Below, piece after piece: positions 1 through 58,952 of a DNA stretch of 64,000 nucleotides; the first letter of the stretch is position 1, and each line of letters opens with the position of its first letter. Made by a program: the position numbers and the translations under genes. The stretch is from positions 12,944,632-13,008,631 of the forward strand of contig NC_087377.1 of NCBI RefSeq assembly GCF_963675165.1. The letters are read 5' to 3'. The notes below the pieces were generated by a model, which was not told the DNA's origin, did no database searches, and worked only from the letters and a program-made list of their open reading frames with translations. The stretch comes from Halichondria panicea (lineage: Eukaryota > Porifera > Demospongiae > Suberitida > Halichondriidae).

Positions 1-1459
1 CAGGTCACTGGGAGGGTAGTCGATGAAGGGGAGAGACAAACGTATCGTATAACTAGAACCAGATGGCCTAACTTCTTGTACGGTAATCATCGTAGCTGGA
101 ACTGAAAGATACAAAATCATGAATTATGCCAGCATATGCAGTTTTACCAGTCACAGTAGTGGAATTGATTGCAGAGCATTCCTTGTTTCTGAACATCACA
201 CACACTGTGTAAGTATCTCCAGGAGATTGGTCTGAGAAATCGATTGCAACTGAACTTCCATTAAATGATGTGGTAGGAACACAATTTTCTCCGCTCGTTA
301 TGTATCCGAACATTCGAATGGGTGCAGTATCAATTGAAATTTCCTGGAATCAAAATTGTTAATTTACCAAGAAAACATCAAAAACTATATAACACTATGT
401 ACCTGGAATTTTATTTTGAGCTTCAGTGCTTCATTTTGGATTAAGAAGGAGGTGGATAATGCTGGAGTCCCCAAGTCTAAATGTGACACCACATTAATGA
501 GCTCCAAGTACGCAGTCACATTACACACATACCTGGATTCATCAACGTGATATTTGAGGTATCTGGCAATAAGAGTCCATTCAGTGTGAGTGGTGTCACA
601 GTCACTGTTGTCTCACAATAAGAGAGGCTCTCTCCAGCTATTGATAGAGATGTGTTGGTGGTATTGTACACTGTTCCATTCAGGTTGACAGTGTAGCCGG
701 TGACACATTTCTGGTAAGGTTGGTCCAGTGGGTCCCACTCCAGAATAGGACATAAACTGTTGGTTCTCAGATTAGCCATCCAGTTAGTTAAAGAAGTCAT
801 ATCTGTACAAAAGAAAATGATCGGTTAGCTATCGTAAAATCTGATCACATTACTTACTTAACACATTGAGAGTGGTGTTACCAACTTGTGGAGAAGACCC
901 ACTGCTACCAGCGAGGCACGTCACCAGAGTACTGTTCAATGTTTCAGTGGCAGGTATCTGAATAGTTGAGCTCAGTGTAGACCCAGAGTTATCACTGATC
1001 ATGGTGATAGTGAATGGACCACAGACGTCTTCTTGCAACCCGGCATCATGGGGAACCAATGCAACGCAAGACATCGGACCGCTGACTTGCCAGCGAGTTA
1101 GCCCACCAGCAACATCGTTATGAGTGCAAGTGAGAGAGACCAACTCTCCAGGACACACTGTCAGTAGATCTTCCTCTTTTGTGATGTCAGCAGCCAGAGC
1201 AACTACATGTATATAGAATGATTAAGATTATTCATCACAAAAATACGGTGAACAATGGTTGTACAACACAACACTATATCTGGTCTATGAATTCTAGCTA
1301 CAAAACTTGCACTTTACTAAATAACTTACAGTAATCTAGATCTAGCTGCAGCAAAAGTGCCCATGACAACAGTACAATCTAGTGATGTTAAAGAAAGTCA
1401 TTAACATTCTATCCAAGTAACTTTTAACTCACAACTTTATTTTTCAGCTTGGTAGACAT
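1..1459 (-). CDS. Ig/FN3 transmembrane receptor copy A (3' end outside window)
   Basis: Exons on the minus strand, all with GT-AG borders and matching phases: 1457-1433 region (1433-1459, start codon at 1459), 1330-1378, 858-1202, 533-802, 403-476, 148-343 and 1-101 (continues beyond the window). The start was chosen because exons 1 and 2 join to MSTKLKNKVIVLLSWALLL, a good signal peptide; the later ATG in exon 2 is out of frame with the Ig exon. Exon 3 is an Ig-like domain (LTC...W...C), exon 4 a first FN3-like domain (LEWDP), exons 5-6 a second (MFGYITSGENC) and exon 7 a third. No break is visible in the part present. The missing 3' end should hold the membrane exon. It belongs to the same subfamily as the copies at 6595-8706 and 26899-29107. 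Confidence 0.8.
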
Positions 1460-6594: not shown

Positions 6595-8706
6595 ATGTCT
6601 ATCTTAAAAAGCAAAACTGTGAGTTAGATCTATATACTTGTACAGTAACACTATGATTATACCATATAGATTCTCCTCTTCTCATGGGCACTTTTGCAGC
6701 AGCTAGATCTACTAGATCACTGTAAGTTAGTTATTCAAGTTCAGTGAAGTAAATTGCAAATTTTGTGGCTAGAATTCATATAACCAGCTAATCATTATTA
6801 TGCTATACAAATTTGTGCAACTCTGTTTCGTCAATTTCTATATATATAGTTGCTCTCGCTGCTGACATCACAAAAGAGGAACCACTGACAGTGTGTCCTG
6901 GAGAGTTGGTCTCTCTCACTTGCACTCATGACAATCTTGCTGGTGGGCAAACTCGCTGGCAAGTCAGCGGTCCGATGTCTTGCGTTGCATTGGTTTCCTA
7001 TGATGCCAGGTGGCAAGAAGACGTCTGTGGTATATTCACTATCACCATGATCAGTGATAACTCTGGGTCTACACTGAGCTCAACTATTCAGATACCTGCC
7101 ACTAAAACACTGGATACTACTGTTGTGACGTGCCTCGCTGGTGGCAGTGCATCTTCTCCACAAGCTGGCAACACCACGCTCAATGTGATAAGTAAGTAAT
7201 GTGACCAGATTTTACCTTTTGTGCAACATTACTATATACAGATATAACTTCTTTAACTAACTGGATGGCTAATCTGAGAACCAACAGTTTATGTCCTATT
7301 CTGGAGTGGGACCCAGTGGACCAACCTTACAAGAGATGTGTCACCGGCTACACTGTCAACTTGAATGGAACAGTGTACACTACCACAAACACATCTCTAT
7401 CATTAGCTAGAGAGAGCCTCCCTTACCGTGAGACTCAGACAGTGACTGTGACACCACTCACACTCAATGGATTCCTATGGCCAGATACCTCAAATATCAC
7501 TGTGATCAATCCAGGTATGCGTGTATGACTGCATGAGCTCATATGTAGTGTTACGTTTAGACTTGGGGACTCCAGCATTATCCAACTCCTTCATAATCCA
7601 AAATGAAGTACTGAAGCTCCAAATAATATTCCAGGTACAGTTATTGCATTTGATGTTTTCTGGGTAAATTAACGATTTTTGATTTCAGGAAATTTCTATT
7701 GATACTGCACCCATTCGAATGTTCGGGTACATAACAAGCGGAGAAAATTGTGTTCCTACCACATTATTTAATGAAAGTTCAGTTGCAATCGATTTCTCAG
7801 ACCAATCGCCTGGAGATGCTTACACAGTATGTGTGATGTTCAGAAACAAGGAATGCTCTGTGTCTGCAATCAATTCCACTACTGTGACTGGTAAAAATGC
7901 ATAATGCTGGCATGTCATCGAATTCATGATTTCTTATTTTTCAGTTCCAGCTACAATGATTACCATACAAGAAGTCACACCATCTGACACTAGTTACACG
8001 ATCCGTTTGTCCCCCCCCTTCACTGGCTACGCTCCCAGTGACCTGCTCATTGTCTCCACCCTCTCTCCCCCTCACTCTGACCCAATCACCCTCCCCTTCC
8101 CCTCCACAACCAACCAAGTCATGATGACTTTCACTGAACTCACTGCTGGAGTCCTCTACACCTACACCAATAGAGTTGTTTTGGCCAGCAACCAATCAAA
8201 TGATGACGTCGTATCTCCAGTCACTGGAGAATTCATAATATTGGCTCTACATGTATTAGGAGGTATGCTACATGGACGAAAAACTGCATGGTAGATAGTG
8301 AAACAATAATTATCAACAGTATACAGAAAAAGCTAGACGTGTTTACTAGTGGTTAGCCTGCTATGATAATTATACTCACTACACTGTAACTCATGCATTA
8401 ATTCTCAAATGAAAAACATGTATATACACTCATGCAGAATCTGTGCGGTCCCTCTCTACTGGTGAAGCAGTGGCAGTCAGTGTGGCAGCTACATTCACTA
8501 TCTCCATAGCGATTGGACTCTTGCTGGGGATGTCTCTAATGTACTGCATCATGTACTACAGGAATAGGGGACGCTATACAGTAAGACAGCGACAGGAAGA
8601 AAGCATTCAACCCACTGTACCAAGTGGTCCTGTTTATGAAGAAGTTACTCTTATCCAAGAACGAATTGAGCTGAAACTGAATGAAGCATACGGACCGTTA
8701 TCATAG
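6595..8706 (+). CDS. Ig/FN3 transmembrane receptor copy B, complete
   Basis: Eight exons give one continuous frame of 517 residues: 6595-6618, 6670-6721, 6850-7191, 7242-7514, 7561-7634, 7689-7890, 7945-8262, 8438-8706. All introns are GT-AG. Residues 1-30 form a signal peptide (MSILKSKTILLFSWALLQQL). Residues 31-139 are Ig-like, with canonical C50 and C120, W62 and extra C41, C70, C85. Residues 140-230 are FN3-like 1 (LEWDP), 231-322 FN3-like 2 and 323-428 FN3-like 3. The membrane span is about 439-467, then a basic stop (RNRGRY) and a 48-residue tail with Y475 (YTVR), Y495 (YEEV) and Y513 (YGPL). YEEV fits a Src-type SH2 docking site; YEEV plus YGPL 18 residues apart resembles an ITAM with a long spacer. 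Two AATAAA signals follow at 8721 and 8766. The ligand and partners are unknown. Confidence 0.88.
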
Positions 8707-22047: not shown

Positions 22048-24453
22048 ATGAGTATGCCAAGTTGCAGCAAGGTAAAAGATATATACTTCTGCATGTATAA
22101 ATATAAATACTCTCATGAATAATAATTGCTTCACCCTGCATTGTAGATTATACAATTGGTCCTGACTTCATGGGTACTGCTAGCAAATCAACTGGGTAAG
22201 TGTTTATAGTATAGTACACCTGCTAGGATGCCCAATTCATAAAGGCTGCTGGTAGATCTATTACTGAGAAAAATATTACTTATCCAGAAGCAGAGCAAAT
22301 CCCTTCGGCTTTCATTGTAATTGTCTATAATAATTGTCCAGATGCCGTAAATGAACATTCTGTTGATGAAAGTGTGCAAACAGTTTGCCCTGGAGAGTTG
22401 GTTTCTCTAATTTGCACTCATGACAATGTTGCTGGTCAACAAACTCACTGGATTGTCAGTGGCTCACAGCCTTGTGATGAATTTGTAAGCCACTTCACTG
22501 ATTCGACTGAAGACATGTGTGGTTCGTTCATTATTACGAGGATAGGTAATACAGTTTCTACATTATATTCAACTATTCAAATACCCGCCACTGAGGCACT
22601 GGACGATACTTTGATTAAATGTTTTTCTGGAGGTCTTACATCGTCCCCACAAGTTGGCAACACCACACTCAATGTGATAAGTCAGTGAAACAACAAGATT
22701 TCATGCTAGCCACACCATATCAACTTTATATATATACTTTCAACTGTTACAGATCTAACTGTGTCTACTGTAACTGACTGGATGGCTAACCTGAGAACCA
22801 ACAGTTTATGTCCTGTTCTGGAGTGGGACCCAGTGGACGCACCATACCAGAGATGTGTCATCGGCTACACTATCAACCTGAATGGAACAGTGTACAATAC
22901 CACAAACACATCTCTATCATTAGCTGGAGAGAGCCTCTCTTACTGTGAGACTCACACAGTGACTGTAACACCACTCACACTCAATGGACTCTTATCGCCA
23001 GATACCTCAAATATCACAGTGATCAATAGAGGTGCCTGTAATGCGACAGCATTATTGTTCAATTTGTGTGTCACATTATTCAGATTTGGGGACTCCAGCA
23101 TTATCTGCCTCCTTCACCATCCATAATGAAGTGCTACTGAAGCTGCAAATAATGGTCCAGGTATGTAGCTATTACATGGCTATGAGTGCCACAAGCTGTT
23201 TATTGGCCCGGTAGAAGATTGTGGTCAAGGGCCTCTAGCCTGAGAGCATTATCTACTACAAGGACCAATACTGCTTGTCAGTGGCGGATCCAGACATGCA
23301 GGTTCCATGGGTTCCATGGAATCAACACACTGGAGATCAACTTACTAGCTATAGCTAGCAACTATAAGCTTGCATGAATGATCGTGATCTGTATAATAGA
23401 GTTACGCAATTTACGTGGGCTGTCTAATACGCATGCTCATTGCTTAGGAAAAGTGATGACCTTTTTTTTACTGAATTTTAGCTGTTTTGTAATCCCCCTC
23501 TCAAATTCTTAGATACATCACAGCTGGTTGCATTTTACGTCTGAGATCAAATAAAACAGGGTGCCAATATCTGCCATAATTATGGCATGCACAGTTCATG
23601 CAGGTGGTGAACTGTGCCAGTAAGGCGCATATGTCAACTACTTGTGGTGCACGAATTGCCATGTAATAACTACTTCGTTGGCTTGAAAACCAGCATAAAA
23701 ACCAACTTGTCGCATATAGATATGACAGATCTCTACTGATTTTGGTGGCTGGAATTACGTAATAACTGCATAGAAACCAGCATATGCTGCATAGCAAACT
23801 TCCCACAGGGACCACAAAAACTTACAAGAGCGTGTCCCTGTATAAAAGTAGTAGTTGACAGTTTGGGTGTGAGGGGGTTCTTCTCTCTCCAGAGGGCGAT
23901 TTTATGCGTCAATAGGCAACATAAATATATGTAATATTAATTTTGTTGCCATATAATTATTATTGTCCTCACAACAGGAAATTTCAATTGATATTGCACC
24001 CATTCGAATGTTCGGATACATAACGAGTGGATAAAATTGTGTTCCTACCAAATCATTTAATATTAAGCTAGACGTGTTTACTCGTAGTTAGCCCGCTATG
24101 ATATATACTCATTACTGTAACTCATGCATTAATTCTCAAATGAAAAACATGTATAATACACTCATGCAGAGTACACTCATGCAGAATCTGTGCGGTCCCT
24201 CTCTATTGGTGAAGCAGTGGCAGTCAGTGTGGCAGCTACATTCATTATTTCCATAGCGGTTGGAATCCTGTTGGGGATGTCTGTAATGTACTGCATTATG
24301 TATTTCAGGAATAGGGGACGCTACGCAGTAAGACAGCGTCAGGAGGAAAGCATTCAACCCACTGTGCCAAGTGGTCCTGTTTATGAAGAAGTTACTCCTA
24401 TCCAAGATGGAATTGAGCTGAAACTGAATGAAGCATACGGACCGTTATCATAG
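22048..24453 (+). pseudogene. Ig/FN3 receptor copy D, truncated
   Basis: Exons 22048-22071, 22147-22195, 22342-22680, 22753-23031 and 23084-23160 are intact and in phase: signal peptide MSMPSCSKIIQLVLTSW..., then an Ig domain with TVCPGELVSLICTH and FN3-like 1. Exon 6 starts at 23978 but has an in-frame TAA at 24032 and is cut near 24060, where it is joined to sequence of the intron before the last exon. The third FN3 exon is deleted. The last exon (24185-24453) is open and encodes the membrane span, YEEV and YGPL. The copy is nearly identical to copy E (31800-34738), so the loss is recent. A secreted or shortened product cannot be excluded. Confidence 0.82.
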
Positions 24454-26898: not shown

Positions 26899-29107
26899 AT
26901 AATGGTCTGCATGTATGCTTCATTCGGTTTCAGCTCAATTCCATCTTGGATAGGAGTAACTTCTTCATAAACAGGACCACTCGGCACAGTGGGTTGAATG
27001 CTTTCCTCCTGTCGCTGTCTTACTGTGTAGTGTCCCCTATTCCTGTAATACATAATGCAGTATACATTAGAGACATCCCCAACAAGAGTCCAATCGCTAT
27101 GGAAATAGTGAATGTAGCTGCCACACTGACTGCCACTGCTTCACCAGTAGAGAGGGGGGACCGCACAGATTCTGCATGAGTGTTGATTGTACAATCATGT
27201 TTTTCATTTGAGCATGAGTTACAGAATATATCATAGCGGGCTAACTACGAGTAAACACGTAGCTTATTCACTATACTGTTGAAGTAAACAATATTATTTG
27301 CGATTGTTTCACTATCTACCAGTTGTTTGCCTCCATGTATAGCATATACCTCCTAATACATGTAGAGCCAATATGAAATTTCCAGTGACTGGAAAAACGA
27401 CATCATTTGATTGGTTGCTGGCCAGAATAATTCTAATTGTGTAGGTGTAGAAGACTCCAGCAGTGATGTCGATGAAGGTCACTGTGATTTGGTTGGTTGT
27501 GTACGGGAAAGGGAGGGTGATTGGACCCGAGTCAGGGGGAGAGAGGGTGGAAACAATGAGCAGGTCACTGGGAGGGTAGCCGGTGAAGGGGAGGGATAAA
27601 CGGACCATGTAACTAGAGCCAGATGGCCTAACTTCTTGTACGGTGATCATTGTAGCTGGAACTGAAAGATACGAATGAATTTGATGATATGCCAGCATAT
27701 GCATTTTACCAGTCACAGTAGTGGAATTGATTGCAGACACAGAGCATTCCTTGTTTCTGAACACACACGCTGTGTAAGCATCTCCAGGCGATTGGTCTGA
27801 GAAATTGATTGCAACTGAACTTCCATTAAATAATGTGGTAGGAACACAATTTTCTCCACTCGTTATGTATCCGAACATTCGAATGGGTGCAGTATCAATA
27901 GAAATTTCCTGGAATCAAAAATCGTTAATTTAGAATACCCCAAAAACATCAAAAGCAATAACTGTACCTGGAATATTATTTGGAGCTTCAGAGCTTTATT
28001 TTGGATTAAGAAGGAGGTGGACAATGCTGGAGTCCCCAAGTCTAAGCTGACACCACATTAATGAGCTCAAGTATGCAGTCATACACACGTGTACATGCAT
28101 ACCTGGATCGATTGATCACAGTGATATTTGAGGTGTCTGGAGATAAGGGTCCATTGAGTGTGAGTGGTGTCACAGTCACTGTCTGAGTCTCACAGTAAGG
28201 GAGGCTCTCTCCAGCTAATGATAGAGATGTGTTTGTGGTATTGTACACTGTTCCATTCAGGTTGATAGTGTATCCAGTAACACATCTCTGGTATGGTGCG
28301 TCCAGTGGGTCCCACTCCAGAACAGGACATAAACTGTTGGTTCTCAGATCAGCCATCCAGTTAGTTAGAGAAGTCATATCTGTAGTTGCACAAATGAAAA
28401 TGATAGGTATATATATACATAGCTACCGTGACATCTGATCACATTACTTACTTATAACATTGAGTGTGGTATTGCCAACTTGTGGAGAAGATGCATTGCC
28501 ACCAGCGAGGCACGTCACCAGAGTACTGTTCAGTGTTTCAGTGGCAGGTATCTGAATAGTTGAGCTCAATGTAGACCCAGAGTTATCACTGATCATGGTG
28601 ACAGTGAATGGACCACAATCGACGTCTTCTTGCAACTGGGCATCATGGATAATCGCTGCAACACAAGATATCGGACCGCTGACTTGCCAACGACTTAGCC
28701 CATCAGCAACATTGTCATGAATGCAAGTGAGAGAAACCAACTCTCCAGGACACACTGTCATTAGATTTTCCTCTTTTATGATGTCAGCAGCCAGAGCAAC
28801 TATATTTATGTAGAACAATTAAGATTATTCATCACATAAATACAGTGAACAATGGTTGCAGCAATTACAACACAATTCATATATATAGCTGGTCTCTATA
28901 TATGAATTCTAGGTCTAGCTACAAAACTTACACTCGAAATAATAACTTACAGTGATCTAGCTGCAGCAGAACTGCCCATAACAACAGTACAATCTAGTGA
29001 TGTTAAAGAAAGTCATTACTAATGACTTTGGATAGAATGCTAATGACATTAGCATTCTATCTAAGTAAGTTTTAACTCACAACTTTATTTTTCAGCTTTG
29101 TAGACAT
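26899..29107 (-). pseudogene. Ig/FN3 receptor copy F, frame-damaged
   Basis: All eight exons are present on the minus strand: 29081-29107, 28951-28993, 28452-28799, 28103-28379, 27968-28041, 27710-27908, 27350-27661 and about 26899-27171. The signal peptide (MSTKLKNKVIVLLLWAVLL) and Ig exon are like copy A. Lesions: exon 4 ends AATCGATCCAG where intact copies have AATCCAG (four extra bases, changing the phase into exon 5), and the last exon has two extra bases (ATGTATACTGC for ATGTACTGC) in the membrane segment plus four more near the stop. The 51-base intron between exons 6 and 7 has no stop and is a multiple of 3, so retained transcripts would stay open there. It is probably not functional as a full receptor, though a soluble or truncated form is possible. 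Confidence 0.8.
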
Positions 29108-30407: not shown

Positions 30408-30507
30408 CAGAATCTGCATGTGTGGTCCCTCTCTACTGGTGAAGCAGTGGCAGTCAGTGTGACAGCTACATTCACTATCTCCATAGCGATTGGACTTTTG
30501 CTGGGAA
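30408..30507 (+). pseudogene. Lone receptor membrane exon, truncated
   Basis: The sequence after the acceptor (CATGCAG) matches the receptor last exon from GGTCCCTCTCTACTGG to GGACTTTTGCTGGG, then breaks off inside the membrane segment. Extra bases (CATG) occur near 30418. Only the start of the exon remains. Confidence 0.8.
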
Positions 30508-31345
30508 ACTCTCAAAAGTACTAACAGACCCGCCAGGCCCTACTTGGCACACCGATAATTATGTTAGACATGCCGTTTTCTATATGCTTGTTTTGAGTTG
30601 AGCTAGATCGGCAAGTCTATCGTGTACACACCTATAGTAACACTGTGTTTCCCGTTCTGTTTTAGTCATTCTCAATGATATTTTCTGAAAGCTAATAATA
30701 ATGCAATCGATTTGATTCTCATTATAATTATTTGTAAGATGATAATTATGCTGAGCTTAAAATAAGGAATTTTTGTATTCCGTATTTAGTGAGTAAGGGT
30801 AAACGTTCGGGGTTTTCGTTGATTAAGCACATACACCGCGAACATACTAATATCGCATGCATGCATGCACGTCAAAAGGCTATAGTCCAAGGATCTGCAA
30901 ATTAAAGGTCTTTCCGCAAAAGTTTATACCCTCGAAATAATTATCTGTTTTTCATAAAACAGTGAAGCCTGCATGGCTGCCTATCGTGCATGATCGCCAC
31001 ATAAACAGGCCATCCTCAATATGCAGCCAGGTTAATGAGCACTAAAGTCTCCATACAATTATAGTGTGTGTGTTATAGCAGGTCACCAGCAACTGTTGGT
31101 GTGTCCAAGGGTTACATACATGGTGGCTGCTATAACATCATGACACAAATATGACCCCGTGCGGATTCACCTGCGGTTTAAAGCAGGTGCAACACAGTCA
31201 CACTGCATGATGAGAAACATATATAACTGCTTTGCATTGGACATTGTGGTGTTTCTGTAGGAGAAATTGAATACCTGTCAATTGCAAATGAAAGTAGTCA
31301 AAAGAGCTGGAGGAATACAGTTTAAAAAGCTCTTATTATAGGCCC
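30508..31345. other. Module sequence, no gene
   Basis: 30510-30960 resembles 34985-35365 (ATTCTCA...TTTTCTGAAAGCT, GCATGCATGCATG, TTTATACCCTCGAAAT). 30970-31220 is a further copy of the CAGGTGCAAC module. No gene seen. Confidence 0.5.
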
Positions 31346-31799: not shown

Positions 31800-34738
31800 A
31801 TGAGTATGCCAAGTTGCAGCAAGGTAAAAGATATATACTTCTGCATGTATAAATATAAATACTCTCATGAATAATGATTGCTTCACCCTGCATTGTAGAT
31901 TATACAATTGGTCCTGACTTCATGGGTACTGCTAGCAAATCAACTGGGTAAATGTTTATAGTATAGTACACCTGCTAGGATGCCCGATTCATAAAGGCTG
32001 CTGGTAGATCTATTACTGAGAAAAATATTACTTATCCAGAAGCAGAGCAAATCCCTTCGGCTTTCATTGTCTCTTTTTAATTGTCTATAATAATTGTCCA
32101 GATGCCGTAAATGAACATTCTGTTGATGAAGGTGTGCAAACAGTTTGCCCTGGAGAGTTGGTTTCTCTAATTTGCACTCATGACAATGTTGCTGGTCAAC
32201 AAACTCACTGGATTGTCAGTGGCTCTCAGTCTTGTGATGAATTTGTAAGCCACTTCACTGATTCGACTGAAGACATGTGTGGTTCATTCACTGTTACGAG
32301 GATAGGTAATACAGTTTCTACATTATACTCAACTATTCAAATACCCGCCACTGAGGCACTGGACGGTACTCTGATTGAATGCTTTTCTGGTGCTCTTATA
32401 TCGTCTCCACAAGTTGGCAACACCACACTCAATGTGATAAGTCAGTGAAACAACAAGATTTCATGCTAGCCACACCATATCAACTTTATATATTATACTT
32501 TCAACTGTTACAGATCTAACTGTGTCTACTGTAACTGACTGGATGGCTAACCTGAGAACCAACAGTTTATGTCCTGTTCTGGAGTGGGACCCAGTGGACC
32601 AACCTTACCAGAGATGTGTCATCGGCTACACCATCAACCTGAATGGAACAGTGTACAATACCACAAACACATCTCTATCATTAGCTGGAGAGAGCCTCTC
32701 TTACTGTGAGACTCAGACAGTGACTGTGACACCACTCACACTCAATGGACTCTTATCGCCAGATACCTCAAATATCACAGTGATCAATAGAGGTGCCTGT
32801 AATGCGACAGCATTATTGTTCAATTTGTGTGTCACATTATTCAGATTTGGGGACTCCAGCATTATCTGCCTCCTTCACCATCCATAATGAAGTGCTACTG
32901 AAGCTGCAAATAATGGTCCAGGTATGTAGCTATTACATGGCTATGAGTGCCACAAGCTGTTTATTGGCCCGGTAGAAGATTGTGGTCAAGGGCCTCTAGC
33001 CTGAGAGCATTATCTACTACAAGGACCAATACTGCTGGATCCAGACATGCAGGTTCCATGGGTTCCATGGAATCAACACACTGGAGATCAACTTACTAGC
33101 TATAGCTAGCAACTAAGCTTGCATGAATGATCGTGATCTGTATATGATAGAGTTACGCAATTTACGTGGGCTCTCTAATGTGCATGCTCATTGCTTAGGA
33201 AAAGTGATGACCTTTTTTTTTTGTCAATTTTAGCTGTTTTGTAACCCCCCTCTCAAATTCTTAGATACGTCACAGCTGGTTGCATTTTGACCTCTGAGAT
33301 CAAATAAAACAGGGTGCCAATATCTACCATAATTATGGCATGCACAGTTCAGGTGGTGAACTGTGCCAGTAAGGCGCATATGTCACAACTACTTGTGGCA
33401 TGCACGAATTGCCATGTAATAACTACTTCGTTGCCTTGAAAACCAGCATAAAAACCACTTGTTGCATATAGATATGACAGATCTCTACTGATTTTGGTGG
33501 CTGGAATTACGTAATAACTGCATAGAAACCAGCATATGCTGCATAGCAAACTTCCCACAGGGACCACAAAAACTTACAAGAGCGTGTCCCTGTATAAAAG
33601 TAGTAGTTGACAGTTTGGGTGTGAGGGGGTTTTTCTCTCTCCAGAGGGCGATTTTATGCGTCAATAGGCAACATAAATATGTAATATTAATTTTGTTGCC
33701 ATATAATTATTATTGTCGTCCTCACAACAGGAAATTTCAATTGATATTGCACCCATTCGAATATTCGGATACATAACGAGTGGAGAAAATTGTGTTCCTA
33801 CCAAATCATTTAATGGAAGTTCAGTTGCAATCGATTTTTCAGATCAATCTCCTGGAGATGCTTACACAGTGTGTGTGATGTTCAGAAACAAGGAATGCTC
33901 TGTGTCTGCAATCAATTCCATTACTGTGACTGGTAAAATGCATAATGCTGGCATATCATTAAATTTATGATTTCGTATCTTTCAGTTCCAGCTACAATGA
34001 TTACCGTACAAGAAGTTACACCATCGGATACTAACTACACGGTTCGTTTGTCCCTCCCCTTCACCAGCTACCCTCCCGGTGACCTGCTCATTATCTCCAC
34101 CCTCTCTCCCCCTCACTCGGACCCAATCATCCTCCCCTTTCCCTACACAACCAACCAAGTTACCGTGACCTTCACTGAACTCACTGCTGGAGTCCTCTAC
34201 ACCTACACCATTAGAGTTGTTCTGGCCAGCAACAAATCAAATGACGTCGTATCTCCAATCACTGGAGAATTCAGTTTGATAACATTAGGAGATATTACAT
34301 GGAGGCGAATAACTGGTAGATAGTGAAACAATTGCAAATAGTATTGTTTACCTCAACAGTATAGTGAATAAGCTAGAGTTTACTAGTAGTTAGCCTGCTA
34401 TGATAATAATACTCATTACTGTAACTCATGCATTAATTCTCAAATGAAAAACATCTATATACACACATGCAGAACCTGTGCGGTCCCTCTCTACTGGTGA
34501 AGCAGTGGCAGTCAGTGTGGCAGCTACATTCACTATCTCCATAGCGATTGGACTCCTGCTGGGGATGTCTGTAATGTACTGCATTATGTACTACAGGAAT
34601 AAGGGACACTACGCAGTAAGACAGCGACAGGAGGAAAGCATTCAACCCACTGTGCCAAGTGGTCCTGTTTACGAAGAAGTTACTCCTATCCAAGAACGAA
34701 TTGAGCTGAAACCGAATGAAGCATACAGACCAATATAA
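31800..34738 (+). CDS. Ig/FN3 transmembrane receptor copy E, complete
   Basis: Exons 31800-31823, 31899-31947, 32102-32440, 32514-32792, 32845-32921, 33731-33932, 33986-34315 and 34473-34738 join in one frame of 521 residues. Signal peptide 1-24 (MSMPSCSKIIQLVLTSWVLL). The Ig domain 25-137 carries TVCPGELVSLICTH and differs strongly from copy B, while FN3-like 1 (138-230) is almost the same as in copy B. FN3-like 2 and 3 follow, then a span (AVAVSVAATFTISIAIGLLL) and a tail with YAVR, YEEV and YRPI (YGPL in other copies). Intron 5 is long (809 bases). The usual exon-7 donor is changed from GAG/GT to GAGAT; the next GT in phase (ACTG/GTAGAT at 34316) restores the frame, adding a few residues before the membrane. 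The exon 3 and 4 donors are weak (GTCAGT, GTGCCT). Probably functional, but transcript evidence would settle exon 7. Confidence 0.8.
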
Positions 34739-37042: not shown

Positions 37043-37311
37043 AATCTGTGCGGTCCCTCTCTACTGGTGAAGCAATGGCAGTCAGTGTGGCAGCTACATT
37101 CACTATTTCCATAGCGATTGGACTCTTGTTGTGGATGTCTGTAATGTACTGCATTATGTATTACAGGAATAGGGGATGCTACGCAGTAAGACAGCGTCAG
37201 GAGGAAAGCATTCAACCCACTGTGCCAAGTGGTCTTGTTTATGAAGAAGTTACTCCTATCCAAGAACGAATTGAGCTGAAACTGAATGAAGCATACGGAC
37301 CATTATCATAG
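37043..37311 (+). pseudogene. Lone receptor membrane/tail exon with open frame
   Basis: After the acceptor CACACATGCAG the complete last exon is open: STGEAMAVSVAATFTISIAI..., YRNRGCYAVR, YEEV, YGPL and the stop at 37311. There is no signal, Ig or FN3 exon upstream on this strand before copy E's end, so it is orphaned. It could still be used as an alternative last exon by the upstream copy E, since the acceptor and phase are intact. Confidence 0.7.
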
Positions 37312-42607: not shown

Positions 42608-42872
42608 TGCGATCCTTCTGTATACTGGTGAAGCAATGGCAGTCAGTGTGGCAGCTACATTCACTATTTACATAGCGATTGGACTCTTGCTGGGGATATC
42701 TCTAATGTACTGCATTATGTGTTACAGGAATAGGGGACGCTATACAGTAAGACAGCGACAGGAAGAAAGCATTCAACCCACTGTTGTGCCAAGTGGTCCT
42801 GTTTATGAAGAAGTTACTCCTATCCAAGAACAAATTGAGCTGAAACCGAATGAAGCATACGGACCATTATAA
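42608..42872 (+). pseudogene. Lone receptor membrane/tail exon, open
   Basis: TGGTGAAGCAATGGCAGTCAG onward encodes the span (VSVAATFTIYIAIGLLLGIS), YTVR, YEEV and YGPL up to the stop at 42872, with one extra Val codon (PTVVPSG). The usual acceptor region and first residues are replaced by unrelated TACATGTA-rich sequence. Confidence 0.72.
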
Positions 42873-53286: not shown

Positions 53287-55148
53287 CTAATGCTTGGCGT
53301 AGTGTTTAGGAGGCCGTGGTGGTAACGGGGACTCGTCCTTAGGGATTGGTTTGGGGGGGCGGACTGGAGTCATCTCACTGTGAGGGGAGATAGATAAAGG
53401 ATTGTTAATGCATTTAGGTGCATGTACGTATGCACTGTGTGTAGAATTAAGAGTGTTTAGCACATAGCATGTATAGCACGAATTGTGTAATGCAATTGGT
53501 CATTAAAGACTATACGTTATAATTATGGAGAAAGATAGCGAGAGAGATCAAAAATGACGGTCCTGTCATTGTCTGAGCCATAAGCTTGAGCATGACTAAG
53601 CGCTAGACAAACGTCTACACAGATGGAGAGTACGTTCAATATAGACTTACGCTTTAGGAGGACGTGACGGAGGCAGCGTCTTTGACTGTCCTGGACTGTC
53701 GTCCGTCATGGTGGGTGATCGAGAGGGGAGTGGAGGGGGAGGGGCTCGGTCGTACTTGTACACGGTACTTGGAACAGCCTTCATGTTCAATTCGACTGGG
53801 AGACGACCTGTGAGTGTGAGTGTGTAGTATTGAGTCATTGTATTGTACATATTTTATACTGGTGGATTTGAGCACTCAAAAAAGCACAGAAGGAATACTC
53901 TGGAGCCATTGTCAAGCTGTACACATTATGCATGGCTGCATCTTCTCAGAGTGATAAGAGTGAACTGATTACACACATGTTAGTCCCTATTTAGTGAGCT
54001 GGGCCCCCATTGTGTTCAGTATGTGAACCACATTGTCAGCCTATACACACACACACACAGTACACTGGGTGAGGTGACTACCTGAGCTTTAAGCGTGTGT
54101 CAGTATCTCCATGAACACACAGTGGACAGGTGTACACACTAATAACATGGTAATGTATACCATAACTACTTGGAGTTAACAGCTGTTAAACATACAAAGA
54201 GTCTCATTTTGGTAAACAGGGAAGCATGTTATATATACCACAGTTCTCAATGAATCAGAGAGAAAAGCAAGAATGTGGTTTGTTGTAAAGTGAAGCAGTA
54301 TTGTGTCTAGTAGTTGGGTAGTTAGGACACAACACAATACTGCCCACACAATCAAAGGAAGCCAGGTGTGGGCCCTTGGGATAAGTGGATGCATGTGTAC
54401 GTACATGATGTACATGTACAAGTACATGATTATAATGATAATGACCTTTTGTGATGGCAGTTTAGAGATCGAGCTAAGGTAATTTGAGTACAAAATTGTG
54501 ACTGTCAATTAGAAAGGATATTAGGGTTGCTTAAACATAGGTATAGCAATAACAACAACATGCTTTTCCAACAACATACAGTCGATTGTGAGTATTAAAC
54601 ATGTGTACGGACACAATGACAGGCCACTATTACAGCAACACACATGAAACCACTACTCACCAGTATTATAGATATTCAGGAGTTCTTGCGACAGTTGCTC
54701 TTCCCCGATATTATGGAGATGACCAGCCAGCTCCCTCCAGGTTGGTCGCCCAGAACAGTTTCTCATCCACTGGTCGATCACCTCCGTTAGACATCCACTA
54801 TTGTTGATTCCACATGAGTCCTCGATCTAAAATGAGATATTTGAGTGAGTTACACCAACAATAGATTGGCACTTCTATTTGTACATTAAGGTGTGACCAG
54901 ACAATGGTTAATTATAGACTCTAAGAAAGTTATTGTTATCAACTTTCATCATTAAAAAAACAACATTCCTTCACACCACGTACAGAACAATGATTGACCC
55001 TTGATAGATTTAAGATTAGTAAGTACCTGCTCAATCATTGTTTCAGGCAGCCTCATAGCCTCTGCTAGCTCCCTCCATTTGTGGTCCATTGACCTGATCT
55101 GCACCAAGGCCTGGTCAATGTCCAAGAGCTTGTCCACATCAGGTAGGG

Positions 55149-55212
<64 letters not shown>

Positions 55213-58200
55213 AAACTGACCTCGCTAATGCAAAGAGGCCACGTACCTAAAACATATTTCAGTAGGCTATGCTTCAGGGCAGCACTAATAATTAGGCCAC
55301 CTGTCACTGGAGGAAGCAATGAATGCTATACACTTTCTAACACTCAAGATGAATACTATTGAGGGGAGTCTACAGCAGCTATATCTTGCTCCCCAACTCA
55401 TGACCAGTGTGTGAATCCACATAACAAGGTTAGCTCCAAATTACCCACTGCCTTAAAAGGTAAGGGTAAAACCAGAAGCTGTAAACTTGACAGCTTATCA
55501 AATTAAAGAACCACTGGTTCCTAATCAGCTAGTCAGGTGATGGGATTCTGCCATTTCGGCTGATTAAGAAGAAGTGTGCTGTAATGTTGTCTGTTCCTGG
55601 TAGTAGGATGCTTCTATCTTGTCTTTCCAAGTGTTGTTTTGCCTGTCTACCAGGAACACACAACAACACTATATACAGCTTAATCATACGGAATGGGGAT
55701 CTCGCTAGATATCTCTAACTACTAGGAACGGATGCACTATGGTACATTCTAACATATCTGGTACACCTATCAAAATCATTGACAATGACTCAAAGCCTAT
55801 CACATAAACAGGCTCACCTGTTGGGCTGGAGGGGAGGGTGGCTGCTTTGGCCTGTTTCCTGCTGGTGGCAGCAACATCCACAGTGGCATAGGTCACATGG
55901 TGCTGGTCCACTGTGGCAGTCGTATTTTTGCCTTTCTTGTGGGGCTGGCTGGAGCTAAGGGCAGCATAGACCACTGGCTCCACTGTAGCCTGAGGTGTCG
56001 GGAAACAAACAGAGTTAAGAATATCTTTCAGTTACAGATCTGTACAATAATTATGTGAAGCAGGATATTGCGGTAAAGCATTGTATTGGTGTACCATGCA
56101 CCACAGGACACATCTACACAAACAAACAGATTCTTTATGAACCAAAGATGATTTGTTTAACTTTAAATTAGTAGTTATAATGCCAACCAAAACAAACACC
56201 CATTAGTCACATTGACTGCCACTGAACACACTCACCACATTGCCAAGCTGGCCATAGCCGGGTAGTCTCTGAGTCTGCAGGAAAATAGAGTGCAATGAAC
56301 AATTGTGTCTAGATGATATTACCTGTCCAGTGTTCATTGTACTGTAGCCTTCCGCGTTGACTCCTATCTTCTGTAAGGAGGAAAAAATCAAAAATCAATG
56401 CTTTGTTCAATAGCTCTAGGTAGTGTTTACGTACATTGTCTGAGTTGAGGACCACCTCATCGTAAGTTAGTGTCCCAGCATCCTGTACATGAATATATAG
56501 AAAGTATGTGCACTGCACATTTTTTGAAGAGTTCATAATGCCTTTTTTGCTGAATGTGAGGTACCACTGGTCTGTATAGTGTAAACTGACTAAGCTCTTC
56601 TCACCGGGCTACGATTAACTCTGCTGTAACCCTCGGAGTCAGGAGGAGGAGGTTGGGCCTGACAGAGAGAGAGAGAGAACAAGAACAAGAGAGTGGGGGG
56701 GGGGGAGGAGACAGATTATTTAAGGCTCTTACCTTACAGCATCATACGTACGACAGCAAAAAAAGAATCAACTCACTTTCTTTGATTCCTTCCTCGGGCC
56801 GTCATGCCTCAGCTCACTGTAGTCTCCCTGAACAGTGAAGCATAGGTACACACTCATACACTGGGGTTATGGTCTTACTTGAAGTCCCGACATCTCCACC
56901 ATCACATCTTCATTGAGCTCATCTGATTTGTGTCTCCTCAGTAAGAGCAGGGCGATCACCACAATGACTATGAGACACACCAGCACCAGTATACTACCAA
57001 CAACACCGCCTACTATAGGTCCTGGAGCACCTGATAAAGGGGCATAAACTGAATTCAAAAATGAAGCACACTTTTGTCATTAAAGATATGCGCAGCGTAA
57101 TTATCTAGTAAGTATTAACTCTCACCTCTAGGACTTACAAGTACACACACGATTGCCTCAGGGTTAGCACTCCAGGCTCCAGCATTAGTACAAGTGATGG
57201 TGTTGGGTTCAGTCAATGAGAATCCATTGTCACACTGGTAAGTCAGCACTGTTCCCTCCGACACTGTCTCATTCAACCTCTCATAGTTCACTATAGTTCC
57301 GTTGGATGGCTCAGCAGGAAGAGAGCAGTTGACTGAAAGAAGGATTGACAATTTAATGGTTGACCTTGTTCTGTCACTGTACTGTATTACCTGGACTCAC
57401 TCTGCACACCAAGCTCCCAGGATTCTCTACCCACTCTCCGCTACCCCCCACATCAGTGCATGTGCTGGTCCTCACATCAGGGGGGAACAGTCCCTCATCA
57501 CAGCGATAGATGACCTGTGAACCCAGTGAGAAGGGTGGTGTTTCCACACCATTGATGTCCACAGTGCCATTGTACGGTACTGTTGGAGAGTCACAGGTGA
57601 CCGAGGGATCTAATAATGTCACCATAGAAACATGTACACATTCAATCTGTTATGTATGATATATATACCTGTAACTGGACTGCTGCAGTCGAAGGTCCCA
57701 GGGTCAGGAGACCACCCACTACTGCCACAGGTTGAGGTTATCACTTCATTGTCTCTGCAAGTGAAGGTGAGCATGGATCCACCAATAGTGACAGGAGGTG
57801 TGTTGGTGATAGTCACATCAGCAGCAGTAGACGGTGTGGGGCACACAACTGCATTAAGGAGGAGGAATTATATAGTATTAGCTATATAAATCATGACTGA
57901 CTTAGATCCATAATTAAACTCTCTTGGCTCATTCCTGCACAGTTGTCAGCTCTGATAGTCACATTGTAGAGAGTGTTGTAGGAGACAGTTATCTGTGCCG
58001 AGATGGCCTCCACGGTGACTGGTGACCCGGACAAAGGTGTTGGGGAGATAGTAACGACATAGTTGACAGACACACTGCCAGTAGAGGAGGGAGGGCCCCA
58101 CTCCAGGGTAGTATTAGAGTAGCTGGGTTGGTTTAGAGTGAAGGAGACTCTTGGACTCAAGGGAGGGGAGGGTGGATCTGTGTGTGTGTGTGCATTATAC

Positions 58201-58952
58201 AGGGTGTTATACAGGATTTTGAAGTAGAGGGGGGAAGTAACAAAAGTAACCAGAAAATTTTGCTACCCTGTTAGTATGTAAAATTGCCAGCTATGGACAC
58301 TCAGTCATATACAACTAGTACAACTAGTACATGAATGCACATTTTAGGGGGGGGGGGGGGGGGAGAAATTGGATCTAGGGGGGGATATCTCCCCTTCCCC
58401 CCTGTACAAAACCCTGGCACATCATACACTGCATGCACTGTATTATTCGTTTCACAGAAACCAGGCAACGCCCAAACTCTGTCATTCTCATTCATCAACC
58501 ACTCACCAGCAACAGTAATGGGAAGAGGACCTTCTCGTGAGCTAGCCCCAATACACTCCACCATAAAACCCTCCACAATGGAGGCCTCGGACAGTGAAGT
58601 GAGAGTGGCAGTGACATTATCTTTACTCGTGTCATTGCGAACACCACGGAATGCTGGAATACCTTCTGTGGCATCATCATTGTTAGAAAGTAAAGATATG
58701 CTGAACCGGGCCCCTTGCAGTGGAGTGATATCCCATTGTATAAAGCTACCAGGCAGAGTGCAGGTGAAGGTGACAGTGTCATCAGGACAAGCCACAGTGG
58801 GGGTTATTGTCAAATAAGCTGCTTTGTGTAACATTGTTTTAATAATAATAATTTATTATTTACATCTACCTACCTTCCCCTCGGCATGACCAACTTAAAA
58901 TAAGCAACGCTAGAGTGACACCAATCTGTAGATCTGATGATCTTGCATTCAT
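53287..58952 (-). CDS. Ig-FN3-sushi transmembrane receptor with ITIM motifs and a Death domain
   Basis: Seventeen minus-strand exons join in one frame of 797 residues: 58874-58952, 58507-58821, 57902-58177, 57669-57848, 57391-57609, 57126-57332, 56879-57048, 56777-56827, 56605-56658, 56435-56482, 56323-56370, 56236-56274, 55818-55989, 55027-55148, 54661-54826, 53651-53807, 53287-53377. All borders are GT-AG and phases agree. Domains: signal peptide 1-25 (IGVTLALLILSW); Ig 27-131 (VTFTCTLPG); FN3 132-223 (LEWGPPSSTG); three sushi-like modules 224-283, 284-356, 357-425; membrane span about 437-460; YxxPhi motifs at Y485, Y510, Y524, Y542, Y556; ITIM-type VVYAAL (Y570) and VTYATV (Y596); Death domain about 622-712 (KWRELAEAMRLPE; RPTWRELAGHL); Pro-rich end with SH3-type PPLPSRSP and LPPRPPK. 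Phosphatase recruitment and death-fold signalling are inferred from the motifs. Confidence 0.9.
54661..55148 (-). other. Death domain encoded by two exons
   Basis: Exon 14 (55027-55148) gives helices 1-3 (VDKLLDIDQALVQIRS, KWRELAEAMRLPETMIEQ), and exon 15 (54661-54826) gives helices 4-6 (CLTEVIDQWM, RPTWRELAGHL, EEQLSQELLNIY). The W-x-x-L pattern in both halves and the TWRELxxxL block near the end are typical of animal Death domains. Its position after ITIM motifs in the same tail is unusual. Confidence 0.82.
55151..55203. repeat. (GT)n microsatellite abutting a splice acceptor
   Basis: About 26 GT units on the + strand. On the coding (minus) strand the run CACACACACAG forms the acceptor of exon 14, which starts immediately after it at 55148. 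Confidence 0.95.
56236..56827 (-). other. Cassette of five phase-0 mini-exons, one YxxPhi motif each
   Basis: Exons of 51, 54, 48, 48 and 39 bases, all phase 0 at both ends, each carry exactly one tyrosine motif: YSEL, YSRV, YDEV, YSTM, YGQL. Any of them can be skipped or duplicated without changing the frame. Confidence 0.85.
58200..58416. mobile_element. CAGGGT-ended MITE, copy 2, in an intron of the Death-domain receptor
   Basis: Starts CAGGGTGTTATACAGG, ends CCCTGTACAAAACCCTG, and has a G run at 58348-58362. It lies between exons 2 and 3 of the receptor gene. Confidence 0.75.

Follow-up and report, generated by a model that had tools for sequence, protein, structure and literature searches.

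The gene at positions 58952-53287 (minus strand) of the analyzed window, a stretch of 64,000 nt from chromosome C1 of Halichondria panicea (assembly GCF_963675165.1, NC_087377.1, positions 12,944,632 to 13,008,631 of the forward strand), is best explained, as far as its sequence allows, as encoding a type I membrane receptor that belongs to a paired-receptor-like cluster of genes in this sponge, the long-tail members of which would couple phosphatase recruitment to a death-fold platform; we put the probability of this reading at about 0.6. The first-pass annotation had described a single receptor. The gene proved to be one of a multigene family with alternative tails.

The 17 exons of the gene, all with GT-AG borders, join in phase and with no internal stop to encode 791 amino acids, in agreement with the earlier claim that they can be joined free of frame error (the earlier model had 797 residues). 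From the N to the C terminus, the product comprises a signal peptide, an Ig domain, an FN3 domain, sushi-type modules, a transmembrane segment, seven YxxPhi tyrosines, a Death domain, and SH3-type proline motifs. Exons 2 to 7 and exon 14 start in phase 1, and the tail exons 8 to 13 start in phase 0. The gene itself is absent from the public protein models found in our tail and ectodomain searches, while the beginning of its exon 1 (58874-58952; start codon and signal peptide, MNARSSDLQIGVTLALLILSWSCRGE) recurs, with one residue altered, in the public models P0011 to P0013.

Exon 2 (58507-58821) encodes an Ig-like domain and exon 3 (57902-58177) an FN3 domain, for which the Pfam fn3 match (E = 0.0013) falls below the cut-off. 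Among the domains proposed by the first-pass annotation, Pfam recovered Sushi and, in the isolated segment, Death, and Pfam scans of the gene returned no match for the Ig-like domain. The predicted fold of the paralogue P0001 (mean pLDDT 53.1) matches the Ig-FN3 portion of NCAM in a structure comparison, a match that speaks for Ig-FN3 only, as the matches listed were filled by Ig-FN3 and included no Death row. Exon 4 (57669-57848) encodes a short sushi-like module, recognized solely through alignments to solved structures (best match from residue 249). It is followed by sushi/CCP module 2 in exon 5 (57391-57609), where Pfam shows two Sushi stretches, and sushi/CCP module 3 in exon 6 (57126-57332), with Pfam Sushi at residues 359-414, both modules also being aligned to solved structures. 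Exon 7 (56879-57030) contributes the transmembrane helix, with a hydropathy of 3.48 at residue 435, and the juxtamembrane stretch.

The first part of the cytoplasmic tail consists of tyrosine cassettes, with a single YxxPhi site in each of the exons 8 (56777-56827; YSEL, Y479), 9 (56605-56658; YSRV, Y504), 10 (56435-56482; YDEV, Y518), 11 (56323-56370; YSTM, Y536), and 12 (56236-56274; YGQL, Y550). Exon 13 (55818-55989) carries the two remaining sites, the ITIM-type motifs VVYAAL and VTYATV noticed in the first pass, which are numbered Y564 and Y590 in our model; the motif LTYDEV of exon 10 adds a third, so that 3 of the 7 tail tyrosines match the ITIM consensus [ILVS]xYxx[LVI]. When the 335-residue tail was shuffled, it contained an average of 0.46 such motifs, and three or more were seen in 0.9% of the shuffles; this test and the invariance of the motif columns described below led us to reject chance occurrence of the ITIMs. 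Exons 14 (55027-55148) and 15 (54661-54826) encode the first and second halves of the Death domain. The Death segment scores 23.4 bits against the Pfam cut-off of 22.6, which bears out the earlier assignment of a Death domain to the same tail, and its nearest solved relative is FADD, with a weak E value of 0.0076. The proline-rich end comprises exon 16 (53651-53807; PPLPSR, PSRPPK) and exon 17 (53287-53377; PVRPPK, PPRPPK, stop codon), and these four class-II SH3 motifs agree with the proline motifs reported at first.

A whole-genome search with the tail located exons 13, 14, and 15 in this order and on the same strand at 15 places on C1, between 11.4 and 13.8 Mb. Not counted among these are one locus with an in-frame stop in exon 13 (L042), one with no exon 13 and a 5-kb N stretch between exons 8 and 16 (L040), and three partial or relic loci (L039, L041, and L043). 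The exon-by-exon comparison covered 14 of the 15 loci and left out L029/L030, where exon 13 lies about 6 kb from exon 14. A search of about 5.8 billion proteins returned 10 public models that match the tail, all of them from H. panicea; these are predictions that map to paralogous loci, and each has the ITIMs joined to the Death domain, inside which P0010 breaks off. Pfam Death was found in all seven long-tail models scanned (of the 10) at E values of 0.013 or less, above the cut-off in two of the seven, and in neither of the two short-tail models. The tail and ectodomain protein searches, which need shared five-residue words and include one tail search in which the best 8,000 candidates were scored, returned no relatives outside H. 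panicea, which does not amount to absence from other species. Some pairs of places on C1 have equal scores and identities in the ectodomain search (e.g., 11693474/12411034 and 12351506/13671114); these are either segments duplicated recently or stretches present twice in the assembly.

Each of the 14 loci compared has a match to the ITIM pair, to the Death domain, and to exon 16, the first proline exon. Every one of them has V[VI]YA[AV]L as ITIM 1 and VTYATV as ITIM 2, and both exon-13 tyrosine codons specify tyrosine in each case, with silent TAT/TAC variation at ITIM 2. All 14 loci show an AG acceptor for exon 13, and the 13 whose match extends to the exon end also show a GT donor. The invariant columns of exon 13 are concentrated in the motifs (10 of 12, versus 10 of 45 elsewhere; Fisher P = 0.00018), and while exon 13 taken whole (dN/dS of 0.32, 91 pairs) is under no stronger constraint than the sushi exons (0.31 to 0.41), its motif columns are. 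The dN/dS ratios are 0.18 for the Death exons (91 pairs) and 0.14 for the tyrosine cassettes (55 pairs). For the ectodomain, they come to 0.49 (Ig) and 0.46 (FN3); all ectodomain values, including those of the sushi exons, are approximate because saturated pairs were omitted from the means. Among six near-identical ectodomains, we counted 31.5 replacement versus 6.5 silent changes in the Ig exon (ratio of 1.64) and 5 versus 1 in the FN3 exon (ratio of 1.69), counts from which we do not claim positive selection. The combination of ITIMs and a Death domain in one tail, as proposed at first, is therefore real, conserved at 14 of 14 loci, and, with a Death dN/dS of 0.18, under purifying selection. 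The one-tyrosine cassettes, in contrast, could not be matched significantly at L034 or L035 and are missing in the corresponding public models (P0010 and P0008, respectively), and so the functional core of the tail likely consists of the three parts matched throughout, namely the ITIM pair, Death domain, and exon 16.

At the locus L012 (C1:14427113-14430394), a more distant relative outside the recent array, one Death domain is 54% and another 46% identical to that of the window gene. One of them (30.4 bits), with the Death domain on a single exon, is adjoined by a divergent tyrosine exon (VYSEV, VDYTTV). This adjacency suggests, from sequence arrangement, that the association of ITIM-type motifs with a Death domain is older than the recent C1 array.

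Ectodomains like that of the window gene are also found on a short tail with two tyrosines (VYEEV...AYGPL) that has neither ITIMs nor a Death domain. Its Ig-FN3 region is 95% identical to that of a short-tail gene, and two short-tail public models are 96% (P0011) and 92% identical to it over residues 26-285. P0011 has a tail of 52 residues, and the exon for this tail is in L044, at a distance of about 42 kb from the window gene. Short-tail models end about 52 residues past the membrane with ...GPVYEEVSPKEEIELNTNQAYGP[LV]GL, and by inspection 14 of 16 follow the pattern YxxV, 13 residues, and YxxL or YxxV, the exceptions being P0016 and P0020, which likewise have no canonical ITAM. The short-tail exon has at least 150 genome matches (150 of 309 candidates scored), and among the matches listed one is on C7 and the rest are on C1 at 11.25 to 14.93 Mb; set against 15 long-tail loci, these numbers are unlike a one-to-one pairing. 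The window holds six short-tail exons. Four short-tail receptor genes with Ig-like and FN3-like exons lie at 6888-8700 (plus strand; VYEEV...AYGPL tail), 22374-24447 (plus strand; VYEEV...AY tail), 26913-28764 (minus strand; tail exon matched in two pieces), and 32134-34735 (plus strand; VYEEV...AY tail), and for a fifth Ig-like/FN3-like receptor gene (1-1161, minus strand) the window ends before the tail is reached. Isolated short-tail exons or pieces occur at 21103-21355, 30426-30521, 37054-37305, and 42618-42869.

While its ectodomain has these short-tail twins, the tail of the window gene is closest to those of genes that have a very different Ig domain. Silent divergence from L024 is about 2.0 in the Ig exon and 0.05 to 0.19 in exons 8 to 15, whereas that from the ectodomain twins L040 and L044 is 0.01 to 0.02 in the Ig exon. 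In an Ig-FN3 tree of 24 of the 27 available models (P0003, P0009, and P0013 were omitted as having incomplete Ig-FN3), the window gene groups with the short-tail P0011 and P0012 (100/100), P0001 with the short-tail P0026 (100/100), and P0002 with the short-tail P0021 (88/88, not starred). Placing the nine long-tail genes in one ectodomain clade is rejected (p-AU = 4.5e-10), and the starred branches require at least three tail changes. As the short-tail rows were picked by their similarity to the window gene, the tree contains no short-tail member of the second ectodomain class. At L043 (C1:12540000-12549000), an ectodomain of this second class (Ig 74% and FN3 83% identical to P0004) lies beside a short tail 89% identical to that of P0011, and a Death/proline relic with little intron remaining is found on the opposite strand. 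The silent-divergence contrast and the tree together indicate more than one round of recombination between tails and ectodomains; judged from sequence comparison, this repeated reassortment gives the family the anatomy of paired receptors, in that one ectodomain is found on different tails within a cluster. Inspection of the 16 short-tail models revealed neither a canonical ITAM nor a charged transmembrane residue for an ITAM adaptor, so that calling the short-tail receptors activating partners is a guess.

The genome encodes candidate partners for both halves of the tail, although their presence does not demonstrate binding. On C3, matches to SH2, SH2, and PTP domains follow each other in this order on the same strand, as in an SHP1/2-type gene, and its C-SH2 (E = 1.7e-55) and N-SH2 (E = 1.2e-33) pieces match SHP-2. 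On C7, a DED match and a Death match separated by about 0.4 kb indicate a FADD-type gene; joined as one query, they match FADD with an E value of 2.3e-10. Separately, tyrosine phosphatase domains that may come from receptor phosphatases form a large array at C4:0.3-2.6 Mb, and many Death-domain exons (at least 148 matches, with 150 of 503 candidates scored) are found at C12:1.0-2.1 Mb and in clusters on C15, C14, and C8. In the mechanism that we consider most likely, ligand clustering would lead to tyrosine phosphorylation of the long tail, and the ITIM pair would recruit a tandem-SH2 phosphatase of the SHP1/2 type, which could damp co-engaged short-tail receptors of the same ligand specificity. 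The Death domain next to the ITIMs might build or gate a FADD-type death-fold complex. Phosphorylation, the binding of SHP and FADD, the sign of the signal, and the ligand are what we infer here.

ITIM-consensus tyrosines may also dock activating SH2 proteins or AP-2. It is possible, if somewhat doubtful, that the receptor is activating, its tyrosines being general SH2/AP-2 docking sites for kinases and adaptors and its Death domain feeding an NF-kB or caspase route, with no inhibitory function. The tail could be read in this way, as only three of the seven YxxPhi sites are of the ITIM type, four class-II SH3 motifs are present, and each of the five cassettes occupies its own phase-0 exon, as expected of an adaptor-docking tail. 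What is retained at 14 of 14 loci, however, is the ITIM pair together with the Death domain and the first proline exon, and not the cassettes, which are unmatched at L034 and L035, and the ITIM columns are the most constrained ones in their exon. We find it rather improbable that the gene encodes a guidance or adhesion receptor in the manner of UNC5, with tyrosine phosphorylation upon ligand binding, feedback through SHP2, and a Death domain but no part in immune recognition. UNC5 does join Ig domains, SHP2 recruitment, and a Death domain (accessible text of the review PMC6080411), and the Ig-FN3 fold predicted for P0001 resembles NCAM, but the Pfam scan shows no ZU5 or thrombospondin domain, and it would be unusual for a guidance receptor to form a large tandem array that swaps tails and whose ectodomains have diverged almost to saturation.

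That the Death exons come from a neighboring gene, or that open frames were joined in the model by chance, is very hard to credit. The intron preceding exon 14 does contain a long CA repeat, at the end of which the acceptor lies, and in the scan of the whole model the Pfam Death score stays below the cut-off. Against this, CA-repeat acceptors are common to 7 of 13 paralogues, and the Death exons have the low dN/dS given above; the collinearity of 15 loci, the joining in 10 of 10 public models, and the conserved splice sites reject a separate gene for the Death exons. We retain the paired-receptor-like system, with a long tail that would couple phosphatase recruitment to a death-fold platform, as the best explanation.

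This reading would suggest a testable rule, i.e., one tail that controls both phosphatase recruitment and death-fold assembly. A more speculative extension, which we consider unlikely but worth stating, is that the C1 cluster (11.2 to 14.9 Mb) represents a sponge recognition complex, that is, an allorecognition or polymorphic self/non-self locus of paired receptors, whose long-tail members would respond to a shared ligand by braking through SHP and, should the brake fail, by signaling death or rejection through the Death domain. The link of the cluster to allorecognition is offered as a hypothesis drawn from its sequence; if true, it would mean that ITIM and death-fold logic were fused in one tail at the base of animals. 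As described in the accessible part of the review PMC12065747, the candidate proteins in sponges, cnidarians, and ascidians show no conservation, aggregation-factor genes are cited for sponges, and receptors with ITIM and hemITAM motifs are found in the allorecognition loci of a tunicate and a cnidarian. A sponge cluster of similar logic would extend ITIM-based recognition to sponges and provide receptor candidates for self/non-self recognition. Neither sponge receptors with ITIMs and a Death domain nor sponge paired receptors are named in the titles and abstract openings of the papers listed in our literature searches; the H. panicea immune-repertoire paper (PMC8242945) does not use the term ITIM in its main text, and the accessible portions of PMC11999971 and PMC9505182 report no such receptor.

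TNF-family death receptors have a cysteine-rich ectodomain, and we know of no ITIM pair beside the Death domain of UNC5. The window gene has a conserved ITIM consensus in its cytoplasmic tail, as in ITIM-bearing receptors, along with the Death domain of death-domain receptors. The statement of the first-pass annotation that no well-described family has both in one tail was too strong, as UNC5, CD95, and TRAIL-R are partial precedents; by architecture, the window gene belongs to neither UNC5 nor the TNF-family death receptors. According to the available text of the respective papers, UNC5 netrin receptors combine Ig domains and a Death domain with phosphorylation-dependent SHP2 recruitment and also carry thrombospondin and ZU5 domains (PMC6080411), CD95 has an ITAM/ITIM-like motif at Tyr291 within its Death domain (PMC4572867), and TRAIL-R binds SHP-1 through its Death domain, though it has no ITIM (PMC10967194). 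On these descriptions, UNC5 and the TNF-family death receptors indicate that a Death domain and an SH2 phosphatase can meet in one receptor. The sponge receptor shares the Ig ectodomain and the Death domain with UNC5, its SHP binding being a prediction, and the Death domain with CD95 and TRAIL-R; its ITIMs occupy a separate exon and are not part of the Death domain, unlike the motif of CD95. Neither thrombospondin and ZU5 domains nor cysteine-rich TNFR repeats gave a Pfam hit at E <= 1 in the window gene and the public models scanned.

Paired receptors with ITIMs are mainly known in vertebrates, where ITIM tails are found in LILRB, SIRP, KIR, and FcR-like receptors. The sponge family shares with them a clustered multigene organization, near-identical ectodomains on different tails, and tandem ITIMs, with VTYATV presumably resembling the ITIMs of LILRB. 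It differs in the Death domain and SH3 ligands of its long tail, in the sushi modules of the ectodomain, and in its short tail, which has no canonical ITAM or charged transmembrane residue; no homology is claimed. The accessible text of PMC12065747 on invertebrate loci with ITIM or hemITAM/YxxPhi tails does not use the term "death domain". These comprise the Fester co-receptors (FcoR) of Botryllus, with Ig and sushi domains, a long tail, and an ITIM or hemITAM, encoded in the allorecognition locus, and the alr genes of Hydractinia, which carry ITIM or hemITAM/YxxPhi motifs (PMC12065747). Likened by description only, the sponge family, which shares Ig and sushi domains with FcoR, would on paper resemble Botryllus FcoR and Hydractinia alr in its way of working.
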